This document shows positions 7,170 through 25,808 of a DNA stretch of 64,000 nucleotides, one piece after another. This DNA comes from Paracoccaceae bacterium (GTDB lineage Bacteria; Pseudomonadota; Alphaproteobacteria; Rhodobacterales; Rhodobacteraceae), in the NCBI GenBank assembly GCA_007694945.1, contig REER01000077.1, forward strand, positions 108,165 through 172,164, given 5' to 3'. The notes below the pieces were generated by a model. It had not been told where the DNA came from, ran no database searches, and saw only the letters and a list, made by a program, of their open reading frames with translations. Position 1 is the first letter of the stretch. Every line of letters starts with the position of its first letter. The position numbers and the translations under genes are program-made.

Positions 7170-8876
7170 ATGCCCTATCGCGCGCCCCTCACCGATTTCA
7201 GCTTCCTGCTCGATCAGATCGTCGATTTCGACAAGGTTCGCGCGACTGAGCGCTTTGCCGAGGCCACGCCCGAGACCACCGATGCGATCCTGACTGAAGC
7301 CGCACGGCTCTGCGAAGAGGTCATGGCCCCGCTCAACCGCACAGGCGATCTGCACCCGGCGAGATTGGAGAACGGGGTGGTACGGACCCCACCGGGCTTT
7401 GCCGAGGGCCATCGCGCCATTGCCGAGGGCGGCTGGCTGGGCATCGCCGCGGCGCCCGAGTATGGCGGCATGGGACTGCCGCAGACACTCGCCAGCGCGG
7501 TCAACGACATGATGTCGGCGGCCTGCCTAGCTTTGCAGGTCAACCCCTTGCTGTCGCTGGGGCAGATCGAGGCGCTGGAGCATCATGCCAGTGACGAGAT
7601 CAAGGCGCTCTATCTGCCCAAGCTGATTTCTGGCGAATGGACCGGCACGATGAACCTGACCGAACCTGAAGCTGGCTCTGATGTGGGGGCGCTGCGGACC
7701 AAGGCCGAGCCCAATCAGGACGGCAGCTATGCGATCACGGGGCAGAAGATCTACATCACATGGGGGGACCATGATTTCGGCGGCAATGTCTGCCATCTGG
7801 TGCTCGCGCGCCTGCCCGACGGAGCACCGGGCACCAAGGGGATCAGCCTCTTCATGGTGCCCAAGCTGCTGCCAGATGCGAATGGCAATCCGGGCGAGCG
7901 GAATGCGCTGCGCGTGGTCTCGCTCGAGCACAAGCTGGGCCTGCATGGCTCGCCCACGGCGGTAATGGCATATGACCGCGCCACAGGCTGGCTTGTCGGC
8001 GAGGAACATGGCGGCATGGCGGCGATGTTCACCATGATGAATAATGCCCGCGTCGGTGTGGGAGTGCAGGGTATCGGCATTGCCGAAGGTGCCTATCAGC
8101 ACGCGCTGCATTACGCGCAGGAACGTCGACAGGGCCGCACGCCGTGCTCGGCCAAGGGCGCGATCATCGAACATGTCGATGTGCGCCGGATGCTGGCGGT
8201 CATGAAAGCCGAGATTTTCGCAATCCGGGCCATCGCGCTGGCCAATTCGGTCGCAATCGACATGGCCACAGCCACCGGCTCGGAGGACTGGGCCGCGCGG
8301 GCAGCATTCTTGACTCCGATCACCAAGGCCCATGGCACGGATATCGGCATCGAAGTGGCAAATCTGGGCATCCAGATCCATGGCGGGATGGGCTTTGTCG
8401 AGGAAACGGGTGCCGCGCAATATCTGCGAGATGTCCGAGTGACGGCGATCTATGAGGGCACCAATGGCATTCAGGCCATGGATCTGGTCGCGCGCAAGAT
8501 GATGGACAGCGGAGAGGCCGCCTTCCGCCTGTTGCAGGAGATCGAAGACTGCGCAGAGGCCGCCCGCGCCGTGCTGCCCGATCTGGCCGAAGAGGTCTGG
8601 CAGGCCGCCGAATCACTGCGCGAGACTACCGAATGGCTTCTGGCCCAGGAGCTTAATGAGCGTTTTGCAGGTGCGACCGCCTATCTGCGCGCCTTCGCCC
8701 GCGTTCTGGGGTCTCATTACCACCTGAAAGCTGCGCTGACCGAGGATGGCGCGCGCCGGGCTCTTGCGCGCGTGTTCATATTCCGTATTCTGCCCGAGCA
8801 TGTCGGGCTCCTGGCACAAGCACGCGCCGGGGCCGATTGTCTCTATGCCCTTTCGGATGATGATCTCGCAGCATGA
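7170..8876 (+). CDS. Acyl-CoA dehydrogenase, DmdC-like
   Basis: A 568-residue FAD-dependent acyl-CoA dehydrogenase with the extra C-terminal domain seen in long family members such as 3-methylmercaptopropionyl-CoA dehydrogenase DmdC. It starts MPYRAPLTDFSFLLDQIVDF, typical of that group. FAD/substrate motifs TMNLTEPEAGSDVGALRTKA (about residue 155) and the segment YEGTNGIQAMDLVARK with the predicted catalytic Glu (about 428) are present. Its stop overlaps the start of the MBL-fold gene (ATGA), so the two are co-translated. Rhodobacterales carry several DmdC paralogs, so the substrate could be another short or branched acyl-CoA. Confidence 0.85.
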   Translation: MPYRAPLTDFSFLLDQIVDFDKVRATERFAEATPETTDAILTEAARLCEEVMAPLNRTGDLHPARLENGVVRTPPGFAEGHRAIAEGGWLGIAAAPEYGGMGLPQTLASAVNDMMSAACLALQVNPLLSLGQIEALEHHASDEIKALYLPKLISGEWTGTMNLTEPEAGSDVGALRTKAEPNQDGSYAITGQKIYITWGDHDFGGNVCHLVLARLPDGAPGTKGISLFMVPKLLPDANGNPGERNALRVVSLEHKLGLHGSPTAVMAYDRATGWLVGEEHGGMAAMFTMMNNARVGVGVQGIGIAEGAYQHALHYAQERRQGRTPCSAKGAIIEHVDVRRMLAVMKAEIFAIRAIALANSVAIDMATATGSEDWAARAAFLTPITKAHGTDIGIEVANLGIQIHGGMGFVEETGAAQYLRDVRVTAIYEGTNGIQAMDLVARKMMDSGEAAFRLLQEIEDCAEAARAVLPDLAEEVWQAAESLRETTEWLLAQELNERFAGATAYLRAFARVLGSHYHLKAALTEDGARRALARVFIFRILPEHVGLLAQARAGADCLYALSDDDLAA

Positions 8877-9913
8877 TGGACGGCTCTGACGCAGCAGGCA
8901 TTCGCCACCCCTTCTCGGACGCGCCCGAGGAGGGCTGCGTCACGCGTATCGCCAAAGGTGTGTTCTGGGCGCGGCTGCCGCTGCCGATGGCGCTTGATCA
9001 TGTCAATGTCTACATCCTTGACGAGGGCGATAGCTGGACCGTCTTCGACACTGGCGTCGACACCACCCGCGCTCGCGGCATCTGGGTCAAACTGTTGGCG
9101 GGGCCGTTGCGCGGCAAGCAGGTCCGCCGAGTAATTGCAAGCCACCATCACCCAGACCATATCGGGCTTGCGGGCTGGTTTCAGGCCGGGGGTGCCGAGC
9201 TTGTGACGACGCGTACCGCCTGGCTCTTTGCGCGGATGCTGACACTCGATGCGCAAGCCACACCGCCACCCGAGATGCTCACCTTCTGGCGCCGTGCGGG
9301 CATGCCATCCGAGATGATCGAGACCCGCACCAAGGAGCGTCCGTTCAATTTCTGCGACACGGTCGCGCCCCTGCCGCTGGGCTATCGGGCGCTGCGCGAG
9401 GGCGATGTTCTGCATGCGGGGGGGCGAGATTGGGATGTGCGCCTGGGTCAAGGCCACGCGCCCGACCAGATCACACTCTGGAGCCGCGACTGCAATCTGG
9501 TGCTGGGTGCGGATCAACTCTTGCCCAGTATCTCGCCCGTTCTGGGGGTCTATGCGACCGAACCCGAGGCCGATCCGGTGGCCGACTGGTTGGAGAGTTG
9601 TGCGCAACTGCAAGAACATGCGCGGTCGGATCATCTGGTGCTTCCGGGTCACAAACTGCCCTTTACCGGCCTTCCCCAGCGCCTCAGTCAGAAAATCGAG
9701 AACCATCTCGGCGCGCTCAAGCGGCTGGAGGCGCATCTGTCCACACCGCGCGTGGCGAGTGAGTGCTTCGAGATGTTGTTCAAGCGCCGTGTGACCGAGG
9801 CCAGCTATGGCCTCGCACTGGCCGAGACAATCGCGCATCTGAATCACCTGCACGCGCGTGGACGCGCGCGGCGCTGGCTGCGCGATGACGGGGTCTGGAT
9901 TTGGCAGGCATGA
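8873..9913 (+). CDS. MBL-fold metallo-hydrolase
   Basis: A 346-residue metallo-beta-lactamase-fold protein. The metal signature HHHPDH is near residue 90, further ligands occur in the GQGHAPDQ and LPGHKLPF segments, and a C-terminal domain of about 100 residues is typical of glyoxalase-II-like family members. Start overlaps the acyl-CoA dehydrogenase stop. Given the partner, a thioester or other acyl-derived substrate is plausible, but this is inference. Its own stop overlaps the following lipoprotein start (ATGA), so three genes form one translationally coupled run. Confidence 0.85.
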   Translation: MMDGSDAAGIRHPFSDAPEEGCVTRIAKGVFWARLPLPMALDHVNVYILDEGDSWTVFDTGVDTTRARGIWVKLLAGPLRGKQVRRVIASHHHPDHIGLAGWFQAGGAELVTTRTAWLFARMLTLDAQATPPPEMLTFWRRAGMPSEMIETRTKERPFNFCDTVAPLPLGYRALREGDVLHAGGRDWDVRLGQGHAPDQITLWSRDCNLVLGADQLLPSISPVLGVYATEPEADPVADWLESCAQLQEHARSDHLVLPGHKLPFTGLPQRLSQKIENHLGALKRLEAHLSTPRVASECFEMLFKRRVTEASYGLALAETIAHLNHLHARGRARRWLRDDGVWIWQA

Positions 9914-10533
9914 TACGCGCAAGCCGCGGCTTTGCCGCGGCGCTGTTGACGGTCTTTTCTGTCGCTTTGGCTGGCTGCGCAGCGCTGTTCATGGGGGTGG
10001 CTGGCAGTGATGGGCTGGGCTATGCCGGGGACGGGCCATCAAAATTGCGTATCGCCATCTATGAGCCGCGGCGCCCGCTTCTCGTGCCCCATGCGGCAAT
10101 GGTGATACACGCGCCGGAGGGGCATCTGATCTATGACCCTGCTGGCTGGACTCCCGATCCGCGCGGGCATCGCCGCGCAGATGTGACCTATTCGGTCACG
10201 CCCGAGATCGAGCGCGCGTTTCTTCTGCGCGAAGAGGCGCCGATGGCACTCGCGGTGCTGCGGTCGGTCGTGCAGCCCGAGTCGTGGGAGTTATACCTGT
10301 TCGAGACCGAGGTGAGCGACGAGGTCGCGAGCGAGGCTGCGCGCCTCGCCCGCGACCGTCCGGCGCTGCCGAAGACCGGCTGCGCCTTAGGGGTTTCGAC
10401 GCTTCTGCGTCAATTGCCGGGCTATGAGGACATCAACCCCTGCTGGTTGCCCTCCACGCTTCTGAGGGCCCTCAAGGGGCGCGACGATCTGACCTTGACC
10501 CAGACGCTTGTGCCCCTCGCGCAAGGGGGGTGA
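9910..10533 (+). CDS. Lipoprotein, candidate permuted papain-like enzyme (copy A)
   Basis: A 207-residue protein from the ATG overlapping the MBL-fold stop; the TTG three codons earlier in the ORF track is not needed. A signal peptide ends in a lipobox (LAGC), placing it at the periplasmic face of a membrane. It is a paralog of the protein at 10759: both share a His-centred strand (PHAAMVIH), a YDPAGW segment and a Cys-containing helix (GCALGVSTLLRQLPGYE). His before Cys is the order expected in circularly permuted NlpC/P60-like enzymes, so a peptidase or amidase role is suggested, not shown. The oxidase subunit IV gene follows. Confidence 0.7.
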   Translation: MIRASRGFAAALLTVFSVALAGCAALFMGVAGSDGLGYAGDGPSKLRIAIYEPRRPLLVPHAAMVIHAPEGHLIYDPAGWTPDPRGHRRADVTYSVTPEIERAFLLREEAPMALAVLRSVVQPESWELYLFETEVSDEVASEAARLARDRPALPKTGCALGVSTLLRQLPGYEDINPCWLPSTLLRALKGRDDLTLTQTLVPLAQGG

Positions 10534-10587
10534 CAGCGGGCATGCGATCGGCTATCGACACAATATCAATGCGTTCAGGAGCGTCCC

Positions 10588-10722
10588 ATGGCTGAGTATG
10601 AACACGGAAAGATGGATATCACCGAGCAGGAGAAGACTTTTGCCGGTTTCATTCGGTTCGTTATCTGGGGTATCGCGATTAGTATCGCTGTTCTGATCTT
10701 TCTGGCGCTGGTGAATGCCTGA
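10588..10722 (+). CDS. aa3-type cytochrome c oxidase subunit IV
   Basis: A 44-residue protein, too short for the ORF track: MAEYEHGKMDITEQEKTF, then one membrane helix (FVIWGIAISIAVLIFLALV). This matches the small subunit IV of alphaproteobacterial aa3 oxidases, which packs against the catalytic core in the inner membrane. AGGAG lies 7 bases upstream of the ATG. It is not beside the other cox genes in this window; instead it sits between two paralogous lipoprotein genes. Confidence 0.85.
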   Translation: MAEYEHGKMDITEQEKTFAGFIRFVIWGIAISIAVLIFLALVNA

Positions 10723-10758
10723 GCCGCACGGCGCGCGCCGCTGATCCGGAGCCTTTTC

Positions 10759-11403
10759 ATGATCCCAAGGATGACGCGCCGCTTGATGGCGCTGTTGCTG
10801 CTGTTGTCGCTCGCGATCACCACGCTCTCTGCCTGTGGTGACAGGGGTGCGTGGGCCAGTGACGACGTTATCCAGGCCGCGCGCCATGTCCATGGCGGAC
10901 AGCCCGAGTTGACTTTGGTCACGATCCTGCACCGCGAAACCCATCGCGGCGAACATACCGGCCTTTTTATAAACGGTCGTGAGCGTGTGATCTTCGACCC
11001 CGCAGGCAGCTGGCGGCTGCCGGATCACGCGCTGCGCGGCGATGTGGTCTTCGGCATGACCAAGGGCGCGGGACTGTCCTATTACATGACCCATGTCCGC
11101 GAGACGCATTACGCTGTCGTCCAGCGGGTGCCGGTCAGTGACGAGGTGGCCGAGCAGGCGCTGGCCCTTGCGCTGGAGACCGGATCGGTCAGCGCAGGGT
11201 TTTGCGCTGCCTCGACCTCGGGGGTGCTGCGGCAATTGCCAGGCTTTGAGACTGTGCGCCGAACCTTCTTTCCCCAGACTCTGATGCGCAGTTTTGCCGA
11301 GATCCCGGGCGTGCAGACTCATGAGCTTCACCATAATGACCCGGATGTGCAGCGCAAGGCTTGGCGCGTGCAGGAACCGTTAAGCACTGTCGCCGCGTTC
11401 TGA
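10759..11403 (+). CDS. Lipoprotein, candidate permuted papain-like enzyme (copy B)
   Basis: A 214-residue paralog of the protein at 9910. The signal peptide ends in a lipobox (LSAC). Shared blocks are EHTGLFINGRERVIFDPAG (His strand), VSDEVAEQALALALETG and FCAASTSGVLRQLPGFE (Cys helix). Conservation of the His and Cys in both copies despite low overall identity argues for a catalytic dyad of the permuted papain-like type. The C-terminal ~40 residues (HELHHNDPDVQRKAW) are less alike. Function is unknown. It probably sits in one transcript with the oxidase subunit IV gene 36 bp upstream. Confidence 0.68.
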   Translation: MIPRMTRRLMALLLLLSLAITTLSACGDRGAWASDDVIQAARHVHGGQPELTLVTILHRETHRGEHTGLFINGRERVIFDPAGSWRLPDHALRGDVVFGMTKGAGLSYYMTHVRETHYAVVQRVPVSDEVAEQALALALETGSVSAGFCAASTSGVLRQLPGFETVRRTFFPQTLMRSFAEIPGVQTHELHHNDPDVQRKAWRVQEPLSTVAAF

Positions 11404-11449
11404 ACGGGCGCCGCTTGCCTTCGCCCGCGCATTGGCGCAAGGGCAGAGC

Positions 11450-12100
11450 ATGAGCGATTTTACATATGCCCCGCCCGATGCCGCCCCGGTCATCCTGCAC
11501 GAGGACCATGAGCTTGTCTTCGCGGACAAACCCTCTGGGCTGCTGTCGGTGCCGGGCAAGGGCGCGCATCTGGCCGATTGCATGATCGCGCGGTTGCGCG
11601 ATGTCTTCCCTGAAATCCTGCTGGTGCACCGGCTCGACCTCGACACCTCGGGGGTGATGGTCTTTGCGCGCACGCCCCATGCGCAGCGTCACCTCGGGTT
11701 GCAATTCGAGAAACGCCAGACCCGCAAATTCTATATCGCCCGCGTGCAGGGCTGCCCCGAGGAACCCAGGGGCCAGGTTGACCTGCCACTCACCGTGGAT
11801 TGGCCCAACCGCCCGCGCCAGATGGTCTGCCACGAGACGGGCCGCCCCGCGCAGACCGATTGGCAGGTGATCCGCCGCGAAGCGACCGGCGCACGGATGA
11901 GGCTGATGCCGCTGACCGGGCGCAGCCATCAGTTGCGGGTGCATATGCTGGCCATCGGGCACCCGATCCTTGGCGACCCGCTTTATGCCAGTGGTGCGGC
12001 GCGGGCGCATCCGCGGTTGATGCTCCATGCCCAGAGCCTGCGCCTGCGCCACCCTGATGGCGGGCGCGGGCTGACCGTCAGCGCCCCGGTGCCGTTCTGA
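11450..12100 (+). CDS. RluA-family RNA pseudouridine synthase
   Basis: From the ATG at 11450 (MSDFTYAPPDAAPVILHED) the protein has 216 residues; the TTG six codons upstream is less likely. It has the RluA catalytic motif HRLDLDTSGVMVFA (about residue 63, Asp nucleophile), the RKFYIARVQG strand and LTGRSHQLRVHMLAIGHPI. No N-terminal S4 domain is present, as in short RluA-type enzymes acting on 23S rRNA and some tRNAs. The exact RNA target is not readable from sequence. Confidence 0.88.
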   Translation: MSDFTYAPPDAAPVILHEDHELVFADKPSGLLSVPGKGAHLADCMIARLRDVFPEILLVHRLDLDTSGVMVFARTPHAQRHLGLQFEKRQTRKFYIARVQGCPEEPRGQVDLPLTVDWPNRPRQMVCHETGRPAQTDWQVIRREATGARMRLMPLTGRSHQLRVHMLAIGHPILGDPLYASGAARAHPRLMLHAQSLRLRHPDGGRGLTVSAPVPF

Positions 12101-20432: not shown

Positions 20433-22211
20433 TCAACCCGAAATCTGCTCGCGCAGCACCGAGGCTGTCATCGACATGAACAGATAGATCCCGAGAAAGA
20501 TCAGGAACGCCAGCGCCGAATTCTCGAGCTTGCGCGGATAGGTCGGCTGGTCAGGCGCCACAGGCTCGACCGAGAGCGCCAGATAACGCACCTGACGGCT
20601 GACCTCGAGCCGCGCATTCTCGAGCTGCTGCATGGCCTGCGCGCGCATCATCTCGCGCGTCTGTACCTCGGCCTCGGCCATGATCAACTGGCTCTGGATC
20701 CGTGCCAGCGAGGTGCCTTCATCCGTGCCGCGGGTCATCATGTTTCGCAGGTCGTCGATTTCTTGGCGCAGCGCTTCTTCCCGGCGCTCCAACGGCTGCA
20801 CGCGGGCCGGGTTTGGGCGCGGGTTCGAGCGCCACTCCTGCAGGCTCAGCCGCGTCTGGGTCAGTTCGGCGTCGAGCACCGCAATCTGCTGCGAGATCAG
20901 CGATACCTCGACCTCGCTCGAGAGCACAGACGACTGCTCCTGCAACTCGACCACAGCTGTCCGGGCATCGATCAGCTGTTGTTGCGCTTCTTCAAGGCTC
21001 GCCCGCGCCTCGCCCAACTGGCTGTCGCGCAAGCGCTGGGTCATCATGTCGACCTGTTCCTCGGCATAGCGGATCAGAGCACGCGAGAAACGCTCGCTGT
21101 CTTCGGGCGAGGCAGCGATGACTTCCAGCCGCACCACGCCCTCGGTCGGGTCATAGCCGATCTGGACGTGGCGCTGGTAGAGTCGGAACGCATCTTCACT
21201 GCTGGCATCCTCGCTCAGACGCCGCAGGATATCGATTTCGGGCTGGCTGAAATGCTCCTTGAAGCCCTCTTCGGCATCGAGCCGCCGCATGGCCGCGCGC
21301 GACTGCAGAAAGGCCTGCACCGAGGCTGCTTCGCTCTGCCCGCCAATGCCCATGCCGGCGGCTGATGGCAACAGCCCCCCCATCGCGCCCACGCCGCCCT
21401 GACTATCGGCTTGCTGGATGATGAACTGACTTTCCGTGCCATACATCGGCGTGGCGATGACATAGAAATACCAGGTCGCGAGAAAGGTTGGCAGGGTCAC
21501 GAAGACCAGCAGACGCGCACCCAGAAGCGCCATGCGCTTGCGGCGGCGCTTGACGATCTCGCGCCGGACCTTCTTGAGCTCGCGCTCCCGCTCGGCCGCG
21601 ATCCGGGCCATGCGCTCTTTCGCAGCCGAGACAGGGTCACCCTCATCCTGTTTGGCGGGGGCCGTGTCAGCCCGCGGGGCAAGGGCGCGCCCCGTGGTCT
21701 CTTTCTCATCCTTCTCGACCAGTTCGAGCAGGGTGGCGCGTGCAAAGGGGTCGACACCGCGCTGGCGCAGCACCAGCACTGCCTCATAAGCTGAGCTTGG
21801 CCGGATCCCGTGCTTCTGGGCCACGCGCATCGCCATGCGCAACTGGCGCGCGGTGAGTCCTTCGGCGCGGATGGACTCGATGGTGTCTTCGACCTTGGCA
21901 GGGGCTTCGAGATCGGCACCATGGGCCGGGTGTGGCTCGGGCGGCTCTTTGGCGGGCATGGTCTGGGAAGCGGGAGCCTTGCCACCTGTTTTGCCGGCAT
22001 CCTTGGGCTTGCGTGCAACCACCACGCTCGGGGCGGCTGTGCTGCCTTGCGATTTATCATCGAGCGCGGGGGTTGCGGCGTCCTTGGCTGGCCGATCCTT
22101 GGCCGAGGGGCGCGCTTCGTCCGCCTTCGCAGTGTCGGGACTCGCCGGTGTTGTGCCGATCTGCGCGCTGCGTCTGAGCCGGAAGCGCTTGGGTTTAATT
22201 GGTGTAGTCAT
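20433..22211 (-). CDS. kpsE: Capsule polysaccharide export inner-membrane protein, KpsE-like
   Basis: 592 residues from the ATG at 22211 (MTTPIKPKRFRLRRSAQIG), overlapping kpsT by 17 bp; the 658-aa track version extends into kpsT. A charged Ala/Pro/Lys-rich cytoplasmic region (about 1-240) contains a helical block (SIRAEGLTARQLRMAMRVAQ). Then come a membrane helix (LLVFVTLPTFLATWYFYVIA), a periplasmic coiled-coil domain of about 300 residues and a C-terminal helix (ALAFLIFLGIYLFMSMTAS). This is the polysaccharide co-polymerase topology of KpsE/BexC. It links the KpsMT exporter to the outer-membrane channel. The extended N-terminus is longer than in E. coli KpsE. Confidence 0.85.
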   Translation of the reverse strand: MTTPIKPKRFRLRRSAQIGTTPASPDTAKADEARPSAKDRPAKDAATPALDDKSQGSTAAPSVVVARKPKDAGKTGGKAPASQTMPAKEPPEPHPAHGADLEAPAKVEDTIESIRAEGLTARQLRMAMRVAQKHGIRPSSAYEAVLVLRQRGVDPFARATLLELVEKDEKETTGRALAPRADTAPAKQDEGDPVSAAKERMARIAAERERELKKVRREIVKRRRKRMALLGARLLVFVTLPTFLATWYFYVIATPMYGTESQFIIQQADSQGGVGAMGGLLPSAAGMGIGGQSEAASVQAFLQSRAAMRRLDAEEGFKEHFSQPEIDILRRLSEDASSEDAFRLYQRHVQIGYDPTEGVVRLEVIAASPEDSERFSRALIRYAEEQVDMMTQRLRDSQLGEARASLEEAQQQLIDARTAVVELQEQSSVLSSEVEVSLISQQIAVLDAELTQTRLSLQEWRSNPRPNPARVQPLERREEALRQEIDDLRNMMTRGTDEGTSLARIQSQLIMAEAEVQTREMMRAQAMQQLENARLEVSRQVRYLALSVEPVAPDQPTYPRKLENSALAFLIFLGIYLFMSMTASVLREQISG

Positions 22212-22848
22212 AGAGTTCCTTGGCCTCTTCGAGCGTGTCGAAGAAATACAGTTTGCCATCATGCAGAACGGCGGCGGACCGGCAGAATTTCGCAAGAATA
22301 TCCGCCTGATGCGACACGATGACAAGCGTGGAGCTTTCGAAACGCTCGCGCATGACCGATCCGGCGCGGCGGTTGAAGCCCACATCGGTCGTGCTGGGCA
22401 TGCCCTCATCGATCAGGTAGAGGTCGAAATTCATCGCCAGCATCAGCGACAGCGCCAGCCGCGAGCGCATCCCCTGACTGTAGGTGCCGATGGGCATGTC
22501 GAAATATTCTTCGATATCGCAGAGCCAGCGGCAGAAGGCCTCGACCTCGTCCGGGTCGAGGCTGTAGAGCGCGGCGATATAGCGGACATTCTCGGTCGCG
22601 GTGTGCTTGGTATTCAGCCCGCCCATGAAACCCAGCGGAAACGAGACCGAGCAATTGCGGGTGATCTTGCCATCATCGGGCTTTTCAAGCCCGGCCATCA
22701 TGTTGATGACTGTCGTCTTGCCCGTGCCATTCTTGGCGAGGATGCCGAGATTCATACCTTCGCGCACGTCAAAGCTGGCACCGTCAAGAATGACCTTGCG
22801 CTGGACCCCGGTCCAGAAGGACTTGCTGACATTCTCGAACTGCAGCAT
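22195..22848 (-). CDS. kpsT: Capsule polysaccharide ABC exporter ATPase, KpsT-like
   Basis: 217 residues, the KpsT length. Signature is YSQGMRSRLALSLMLAMNFD and Walker B YLIDEGMPS. The Walker A loop reads LAKNGTGKTT, so the usual first Gly of GxxGxGK is Ala. It energises capsule polysaccharide export through the KpsM channel, but no kpsM lies in the window; upstream is 351 bp without a gene, so the partner must be elsewhere. Translationally coupled with kpsE. Confidence 0.85.
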   Translation of the reverse strand: MLQFENVSKSFWTGVQRKVILDGASFDVREGMNLGILAKNGTGKTTVINMMAGLEKPDDGKITRNCSVSFPLGFMGGLNTKHTATENVRYIAALYSLDPDEVEAFCRWLCDIEEYFDMPIGTYSQGMRSRLALSLMLAMNFDLYLIDEGMPSTTDVGFNRRAGSVMRERFESSTLVIVSHQADILAKFCRSAAVLHDGKLYFFDTLEEAKELYDYTN

Positions 22849-24188: not shown

Positions 24189-25808
24189 ATGATGGCAAGT
24201 TGGATGGCCGCAATGCTTCGCAGCGGTTTTCGGCATGGTTTATTCGTTACTGGTATTGTCTGCCTGCTTGGCACCGCCACGCCGAAACTGGCCACGGCCC
24301 AGCAATTTCCGGCCTTCCGGCAGGCCGTCGCTGAAAGCGTCTCATCCAGTGAAGCGATTTCGGCTTTCTATCGCGCCCATGACTATGAGCCACTCTGGAC
24401 CGGACCCGACCACGCGCCACGCCGCGAGGCGCTGATCAATGCGCTGTCGCGGGCGGCGGATCACGGGCTGCCGGAGGCCCGGTATGACCTGCCGGGACTG
24501 ATCGCCGCCTTCGAGGCTGTGGAAAGCGAGCGTGACCGCGGCCAGCTCGAGGCCCGCGTCACAAAGGTCTTTCTGCAATTCGCGCGCGATCTGCATAGCG
24601 GTGTGATCGACCCCCGCCAGGTGGATCGCGGAATCGTTCGGCTCCTGCCGCGCCCTGACCCCAAGAAATTGCTGACCGACTTTGCGCAAGCACCGGCTGC
24701 CGCTTTCATCCGCAATCTGGCCCCTTCCGCGCCGGAATATGCGCGCCTGTTCAGGGTGCGCGAAGGCCTGGTGCGCGTGATTGCCGAGGGCGGCTGGGGC
24801 CCGCGCGTGCCGGAAGCGCGCTTTTCGCCCGGCACTTCGGGAGATGGTGTGATCGCGCTGCGCAACCGATTGATCGCAATGGGCTATCTGGAGCGCTCGG
24901 CAAGTGCGAGTTATGACGCGGCGCTGCAGGCGGCGGTCATGGCGTTCCAGACCCATCATGGCATCGAAGCCGACGGTATTGCCGGACAGGCGACGATCCG
25001 CGCGCTAAATGTCCCTCCCGAAGAGCGACTGAAATCGGTGATCGTGGCGATGGAGCGCGAGCGTTGGCTGAATATCCCGCGTGGCGATCGGCATATCTGG
25101 GTCAACTTGACCGATTTTCATTCACGCATCGTCGACAATGATCAGGTGACCTTCGAGACCAAGTCGATCATTGGCGCGCAGGCAAACGACCGGCAGACCC
25201 CGGAATTCTCCGACCGCATGACCTATCTCGAGATCAATCCGGACTGGACCCTGCCGCGCTCGATCCTCGCGCGGTCCTACTGGGGTGCGCTGGCCTCGGG
25301 CGGGGCGCGGCATCTGGAGGTCGTGGATGCGCGCGGGCGGGTGGTGCCACGCGCGGCGATCGATTTTTCGCGCTACACACCGGCCAATTTCCCCTTCAAC
25401 GTTCGCCAGCCCCCGGGGCCGAGCAACGCGCTGGGGGAAGTTAAATTCATGTTCCCCAACCCCTATGCAATCTATTTGCACGACACGCCTGAGAGGCATC
25501 TGTTCAACACGGTCGTGCGGACGCATTCCTCGGGCTGCGTCCGGCTGAATGACCCACGTGAATTCGCCTATGAGCTGCTGTCGCGCCAGAGCGATGACCC
25601 GCGCGGCCTGTATCATTCGGTGCTGAACACGCGCCAGCAGACACGGGTCTATCTGGACGAGCCTGTGCCGATCCATCTCGTCTATCGCACCGCTTTCACC
25701 GATGCGAGCGGCGCTCTGAATTTCCGCGCGGACATCTATGGCCGCGATGCACGCATCTTCGATGCGCTGCTGCGCGCCGGTGCTGTGGCGAACGGCTTGC
25801 GGATGTAA
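24189..25808 (+). CDS. L,D-transpeptidase, YcbB (LdtD) type
   Basis: 539 residues: an N-terminal signal segment (HGLFVTGIVCLLGTATP), a large N-terminal domain, a peptidoglycan-binding domain at about 215-275 (ALQAAVMAFQTHHGIEADGI) and a YkuD catalytic domain with HSSGCVRLNDPREFAYELL around residue 448 (Cys nucleophile). These enzymes form 3-3 diaminopimelate cross-links in peptidoglycan in the periplasm. The divergent MepK-like gene encodes the matching hydrolase, so the pair likely balances 3-3 cross-linking. Confidence 0.9.
   Translation: MMASWMAAMLRSGFRHGLFVTGIVCLLGTATPKLATAQQFPAFRQAVAESVSSSEAISAFYRAHDYEPLWTGPDHAPRREALINALSRAADHGLPEARYDLPGLIAAFEAVESERDRGQLEARVTKVFLQFARDLHSGVIDPRQVDRGIVRLLPRPDPKKLLTDFAQAPAAAFIRNLAPSAPEYARLFRVREGLVRVIAEGGWGPRVPEARFSPGTSGDGVIALRNRLIAMGYLERSASASYDAALQAAVMAFQTHHGIEADGIAGQATIRALNVPPEERLKSVIVAMERERWLNIPRGDRHIWVNLTDFHSRIVDNDQVTFETKSIIGAQANDRQTPEFSDRMTYLEINPDWTLPRSILARSYWGALASGGARHLEVVDARGRVVPRAAIDFSRYTPANFPFNVRQPPGPSNALGEVKFMFPNPYAIYLHDTPERHLFNTVVRTHSSGCVRLNDPREFAYELLSRQSDDPRGLYHSVLNTRQQTRVYLDEPVPIHLVYRTAFTDASGALNFRADIYGRDARIFDALLRAGAVANGLRM

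Follow-up and report, generated by a model that had tools for sequence, protein, structure and literature searches.

RESULTS

Two lipoprotein genes flank an oxidase subunit IV gene

We analyzed a 64,000-nucleotide stretch of DNA, here called the window, from a member of the Rhodobacteraceae (Paracoccaceae bacterium, contig REER01000077.1, positions 108,165 to 172,164). Our subject is two predicted lipoproteins, LipA and LipB, whose genes lie on either side of the gene for subunit IV of the aa3-type cytochrome c oxidase. An earlier reading of the DNA letters alone (the original prediction) had proposed this arrangement, and it holds: the open reading frames (ORFs), the lipoboxes, and the quoted motifs are all present, and the intervening ORF matches Pfam COX4_pro_2 (PF07835; E=7e-15, 55.4 bits versus a cut-off of 22) as well as the solved PDB chains 1m56_D, 5weh_D, and 1qle_D. 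Judged by LipB, the closest named relatives of the source are soda-lake bacteria of the Roseinatronobacter/Natronohydrobacter type. The three genes and the codons discussed below are as follows.

9910-10533, + strand: LipA, 207-residue predicted lipoprotein and LipB paralogue (ORF and translation); start in an ATGA overlap with the upstream stop
9976-9978, + strand: LipA lipobox Cys23 (ALAGC)
10090-10092, + strand: LipA His61, counterpart His codon
10135-10146, + strand: LipA Asp76-Pro-Ala-Gly, DPAG block
10381-10383, + strand: LipA Cys158, counterpart Cys codon
10588-10722, + strand: aa3-type cytochrome c oxidase subunit IV, 44 residues (Pfam COX4_pro_2, PDB chain matches)
10759-11403, + strand: LipB, 214-residue predicted lipoprotein, conserved partner of subunit IV (ORF and translation)
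10834-10836, + strand: LipB lipobox cysteine, Cys26 (LSAC in the translation)
10954-10956, + strand: LipB His66, presumed catalytic; invariant, at the start of strand 64-72
10996-11007, + strand: LipB Asp80-Pro-Ala-Gly83, with Asp80 the presumed third catalytic residue (from conservation); just past strand 76-79
11203-11205, + strand: LipB Cys149, presumed catalytic; invariant, at the N terminus of helix 149-158

LipA and LipB are 30% identical over 128 residues (E=3e-14), a likeness that is not due to chance, and are thus paralogues. Each has a signal peptide followed by its lipobox. LipA contains PHAAMVI, DPAG, and CALGVSTLLRQLPGY, and LipB contains EHTGLFI, DPAG, and CAASTSGVLRQLPGF. The shared His strand, DPAG block, and Cys helix that the prediction had noted are conserved among relatives to a degree that greatly exceeds chance. 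All 154 distinct homologues have His66 and Cys149, and 153 have Asp80, the single exception being Asn; Pro81, Gly83, and Ala131 are also invariant. The His, Asp, and Cys are kept both in LipA and in the copies of LipB on copper islands that we describe below. Thus, the order His before Cys, proposed to resemble that of circularly permuted NlpC/P60-like enzymes, is borne out and gains an Asp 14 residues past the His. A further position, His112, is conserved in 141 of 150 LipB proteins and lost in LipA.

The lipobox cysteine is found in every homologue row that covers its column (152/152), including all 148 such LipB rows. Since the following residue in LipB is mostly Gly or Ala and never Asp, LipB is probably sorted to the outer membrane according to the +2 rule of E. 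coli.

The conserved unit is subunit IV plus LipB

LipB is widespread in one family of bacteria. Of 23 congeners, 22 contain it, as do 217 of 249 Rhodobacteraceae genomes (~87%; one genome per genus in nearly all cases), while 284 genomes from other families of the class yielded no homologue, even with a profile search. LipA was detected, as a second hit, in four of the 24 genomes of the genus, including its own, in a Pararhodobacter metagenome-assembled genome (MAG), and otherwise in only one of the 249 family genomes. In the Pararhodobacter MAG (L128:7152-8597) the order LipA-subunit IV-LipB is the same as in the window, and its LipA is only 40% identical. Because LipA is this rare, we rejected a system of paired lipoproteins; LipA is a rare extra copy, a local duplicate of LipB. 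Tandem duplications of LipB directly 3′ of subunit IV occur at four other loci (L106, L115, L132, and L045).

The predicted link with subunit IV holds generally only for LipB. In sampled loci, subunit IV lies directly upstream of LipB on the same strand in 65 of the top 80 loci from the GTDB collection and in all 40 additional genera, which were drawn from the lower part of the ranked match list. Ten of the 15 exceptions have copper-island genes (Lgt, DUF302-type, and EF-hand-type), and L095 groups with island copies in the tree. Two others lie at contig ends, L121 has a divergent subunit IV that was detected by tblastn, and L099 is unexplained. This last locus (L099:8025-8627, from the Rhodobacterales MAG DOLJORAL78) contains LipB without a recognisable adjoining subunit IV, outside a copper island.

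In the window, LipA, subunit IV, and LipB are part of a co-directional gene run on the + strand (7170-12100) that also includes three neighbors.

7170-8876, + strand: acyl-CoA dehydrogenase (Pfam Acyl-CoA_dh); its stop overlaps the start of the next gene
8873-9913, + strand: metallo-beta-lactamase-fold hydrolase (Pfam Lactamase_B, E=4e-18); its stop overlaps the LipA start
11432-12100, + strand: RluA-type pseudouridine synthase (Pfam PseudoU_synth_2, E=1e-29), 28 bases after LipB

The 5′ junctions of the run are tight, consisting of two ATGA overlaps and then 54 bases up to subunit IV, and 36 bases separate the subunit IV stop from the LipB start. As these junctions are tight and a search for a consensus promoter inside the run found none, we infer that subunit IV and LipB are likely co-transcribed. 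Elsewhere in the window are an L,D-transpeptidase with scaffold and peptidoglycan-binding domains (24189-25808), at a position unrelated to the LipA/LipB locus, and a 658-residue minus-strand open frame with no Pfam match (20433-22409) that may be a shadow frame of an opposite-strand gene.

The adjacency could reflect regional synteny only, with LipB unrelated to the oxidase, a possibility that we take seriously without favoring it and that is compatible with the envelope function proposed below. The upstream acyl-CoA dehydrogenase/metallo-beta-lactamase block, which was scored as a single merged ORF cluster, is found ahead of subunit IV in 35 of the 40 genera. Downstream blocks are often kept too, such as the molybdenum-cofactor genes in Ruegeria TM1040, in at most about 30 of 40 genera. 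The upstream block also remains in 10 of 18 loci that lack LipB. However, subunit IV and LipB stay together in 40/40 genera while their flanks vary. The gene downstream of LipB in the window is itself different, as this slot is usually filled by other genes elsewhere (in Ruegeria TM1040, azlDC and then fdhD/mobA/mobB/glp).

To these loci without LipB we owe a further conclusion. Because 18 of 20 sampled family genomes that lack LipB retain subunit IV, subunit IV does not require LipB and is not dependent on it despite their adjacency and probable co-transcription. In these genomes, subunit IV is followed, for example, by the transhydrogenase gene pntA (our own reading of the sequence) or by an opposite-strand gene, and we saw no substitute lipoprotein 3′ of subunit IV. 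The conserved unit is thus subunit IV plus LipB, not the lipoprotein pair.

Copper islands have captured LipB at least twice

LipB is also present in 39 plasmid records, of which 31 are predicted to be conjugative and all those listed are from Rhodobacterales. One of these replicons, the Ruegeria TM1040 megaplasmid, carries an ordinary subunit IV-LipB locus. Others carry LipB on copper islands, where it comes without subunit IV. Type 1 islands (D. shibae, Phaeobacter, Marinibacterium) encode copper ATPases, a multicopper oxidase, CueR/CsoR, Lgt, L,D-transpeptidases, DUF302, DUF305, and glutaredoxin, with DsbB and CcdA also present in the D. shibae and Phaeobacter islands. The fuller copies of type 2 islands (Gemmobacter/Tabrizicola/Neotabrizicola) encode Lnt, L,D-transpeptidases, two Sco proteins, PCuAC, DUF411, a multicopper oxidase, TlpA/DsbA, and PBP2; one also has LspA and DsbB. 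An island-bearing genome may keep its normal chromosomal copy as well, as in Thalassococcus halodurans (L087 and L140).

In three islands of marine Rhodobacterales (L029, L030, and L031), Lgt and one to three L,D-transpeptidases are encoded beside copper ATPases, and the island LipB proteins differ little or not at all between several genera. For the D. shibae plasmid LipB (WP_306315108.1, L029:11653-12543), the annotated start probably lies too far upstream, the lipoprotein start being near 11926. On the type 2 plasmids L252, L256, and L257 (Gemmobacter, Tabrizicola), a DUF411 gene follows LipB on the same strand.

In the phylogenetic tree, type 1 copies and a Sulfitobacter plasmid copy nest with Marivita chromosomal copies (support 100/96), and type 2 copies nest with Gemmobacter/Rhodobacter-type copies (97/95). 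Since a single origin of all island copies was rejected (p-AU=3.6e-8), LipB has been captured by copper islands at least twice. Recombination between island types could blur the number of captures, but the different origins of their LipB copies stand.

The islands bear on whether LipB is a maturation or assembly factor that acts directly on the aa3 oxidase, for example as a protease or chaperone for a periplasmic domain or the copper site. The near-universal adjacency, tighter than that of the flanking genes, speaks for such a role, as does the island type that pairs LipB with oxidase-metallating proteins (PCuAC and two Sco proteins). Nonetheless, we regard it as unlikely. Marivita-type islands hold LipB with no oxidase genes in the stretch read, LipB is predicted to be sorted to the outer membrane, and most genomes without LipB keep subunit IV, itself a small subunit that is usually dispensable for activity. 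The idea of C-terminal processing of oxidase subunit II in Rhodobacter remains a guess, as a search of the available literature for it gave nothing. Thus, of the two roles first suggested for the lipoproteins, the genomes that lack LipB weaken the one in oxidase assembly, and the copper islands add weight to the one in the envelope.

LipB resembles permuted papain-like enzymes in layout but matches no known family

Neither LipA nor LipB belongs to a Pfam or NCBIfam family, and LipB has no match among PDB sequences. When 76 homologues were scanned singly against Pfam and NCBIfam, no convincing family emerged. A 34-member alignment had no match in PHROGs, and none of the phage records searched encodes LipB.

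AlphaFold2 nonetheless gave confident models. For LipB, modeled with 76 aligned sequences, the predicted local distance difference test (pLDDT) was 93.8 and the predicted template modeling (pTM) score 0.86; for LipA these values were 84.7 and 0.78. The LipB model begins with strand 50-58, strand 64-72 with His66 near its start, and strand 76-79, which leads directly to Asp80. These are followed by helix 102-112, strand 117-125, helix 128-141, helix 149-158, which begins with Cys149, helix 172-180, and strand 186-191. We take this order to be that of LRAT-like enzymes plus extra elements, a comparison that we made ourselves and without superposition. The His strand and Cys helix of the prediction thus agree with the LipB model.

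Comparison with known folds did not extend this agreement, and several results weigh against reading LipB as a permuted papain-like enzyme of the envelope. Foldseek searches of the PDB gave best E values of 0.2 for LipB and 0.05 for LipA, neither significant. The matches were at chance level, mostly MHC-like (major histocompatibility complex) and other beta-sheet/helix proteins, and no YiiX/YaeF-type, BcPPNE, LRAT, or PLAAT structure was among the 50 listed. Viral models (BFVD) yielded nothing below E=0.02 and no significant match. When we used hhalign to compare LipB with Peptidase_C92, DUF2459, and NLPC_P60, P was 0.09-0.37, similar to unrelated controls, and a doubled NLPC_P60 profile that permits permutation was not significant, with scores like those of reversed and unrelated controls. 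The conserved Tyr that precedes Cys in the superfamily has no equivalent, as no Tyr exceeds 50% between residues 109 and 148; position 117 is a mixture of Tyr, His, and Phe, positions 98 and 108 are Tyr/Phe, position 43 is Tyr/His, and none is invariant. Moreover, outer-membrane sorting is extrapolated to these bacteria from an E. coli rule, and neither promoter nor terminator evidence supports an operon.

Two viral models that we considered were rejected as not significant: a Terrestrivirus protein (template modeling score 0.42, probability 0.93, E=0.04) and a phage "cysteine peptidase" (0.43, E=1). The best local hhalign stretch aligns the His motif of LipB with the catalytic residue in three of three papain-like families, none significantly. 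Because no Foldseek or profile match is significant and the signature Tyr is absent, we do not assign LipB to NlpC/P60. From its residues and model, LipB may work like a permuted papain-like enzyme, yet we do not count it as a member of that superfamily.

Could LipB cleave peptidoglycan, as an amidase or endopeptidase, in the manner of canonical NlpC/P60 enzymes? The Cys-His-polar residue pattern fits, and the islands read encode L,D-transpeptidases, in some cases together with PBP2 and an M23 peptidase. However, a hydrophobic pocket and links to lipids are features of permuted superfamily members (PMC3142127), and LipB has neither a peptidoglycan-binding domain nor a profile match to PF00877, making this role rather doubtful. 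A non-enzymatic copper-binding lipoprotein or metallochaperone that uses His66, Cys149, and possibly His112 is improbable: although the island context, the adjoining copper-enzyme gene, the invariant His and Cys, and the frequent His112 would suit it, LipA lacks His112, the shared residues are Cys, His, and Asp rather than the Cys/Met/His sets of copper chaperones, and a Cys at a helix N terminus with a His on a strand is enzyme-like.

DISCUSSION

A candidate copper-sensitive thiol enzyme of the envelope

We consider it about an even call that LipB is a periplasm-facing envelope thiol hydrolase or acyltransferase with a Cys-His-Asp site in permuted papain-like order, which is poisoned by copper and of which islands carry a spare copy. 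In this proposal, LipB and LipA would be lipid-anchored, face the periplasm, and probably reside in the outer membrane. Most likely, Cys149 would form an acyl-thioester, with His66 serving for activation and Asp80 for orientation, and LipB would hydrolyze or transfer an acyl or amide group of a substrate in the envelope. Our first guess for this substrate is a lipid or lipoprotein acyl group, as for LnsA, LRAT, and YiiX, and our second a peptidoglycan amide. Because its essential residue would be a periplasmic thiol, LipB would be poisoned by copper, and this would explain why mobile islands carry a spare LipB beside other periplasmic enzymes and pathways that copper poisons. In E. coli, copper interferes with the acylation of lipoproteins and has an effect that mimics depletion of Lgt, and lnt is the same gene as cutE (PMC6538781). 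Copper also inhibits LD-transpeptidases and the related DpaA (PMC8263019).

Only tentatively do we extend this proposal to a copper-sensitive acyltransferase or hydrolase that acts in lipoprotein or outer-membrane maturation and is tied to respiration through the subunit IV operon. On this view, the islands would serve as spare-part kits for periplasmic steps that copper poisons (Lgt or LspA/Lnt, L,D-transpeptidases, Dsb, and LipB), with LipB captured at least twice.

Several features make LipB worth pursuing. A protein found in most sampled Rhodobacteraceae genomes, fixed beside a textbook aa3 oxidase subunit, has no family name, and LipA and LipB appear to represent a type of cysteine enzyme that has yet to be described. 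The repeated and independent capture of LipB by plasmid-borne and often conjugative copper islands, beside genes for lipoprotein maturation and L,D-transpeptidases, is a lead toward an envelope enzyme that copper disables. If this is correct, envelope biology would gain a new thiol enzyme, and the cargo of metal-resistance islands besides pumps would follow a simple rule, namely spare copies of the targets of the metal.

Comparison with known systems

Within the oxidase subunit IV neighborhood of Rhodobacteraceae, the gene immediately 5′ of LipB is fixed and encodes the known small subunit (PDB 1m56_D), and the downstream lipoprotein is annotated only as a hypothetical protein, with no family model.

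Among families with a similar order of motifs, the DUF2459 proteins (PF09601) are secreted or lipoproteins in which an NG[VW]H motif precedes a TCN[ET]W Cys motif; their profile comparison with LipB was not significant (P=0.087). Members of Peptidase_C92 (PF05708) are bacterial, several act on lipid-like groups, and, like LipB, they have His on a strand, a polar residue 12-15 residues on, and Cys on a C-terminal helix. In contrast to these proteins, with which it has no sequence, profile, or Foldseek match, LipB lacks the conserved Tyr and is a lipoprotein with DPAG, RxD, and LRxLPGF motifs of its own. In the permuted NlpC/P60 enzyme BcPPNE, His49 and Glu64 are 15 residues apart (PMC3142127), similar to the 14 in LipB.

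LRAT/PLAAT enzymes (PF04970) have no detectable sequence similarity to LipB, and the NCE-type Cys motif is absent, with FCAxSTS or NCTxAxS in its place. Nevertheless, the order of elements and residues is alike in our own comparison, and their acyl-thioester chemistry is the model for the reaction that we propose. Although S. aureus LnsA requires LnsB and has not been described as a lipoprotein, it resembles LipB as we read it: LnsA is a permuted NlpC/P60-type protein that is needed for lipoprotein N-acylation, and in Listeria another lipoprotein-acylation gene, lit2, is carried on copper islands (PMC7387801).

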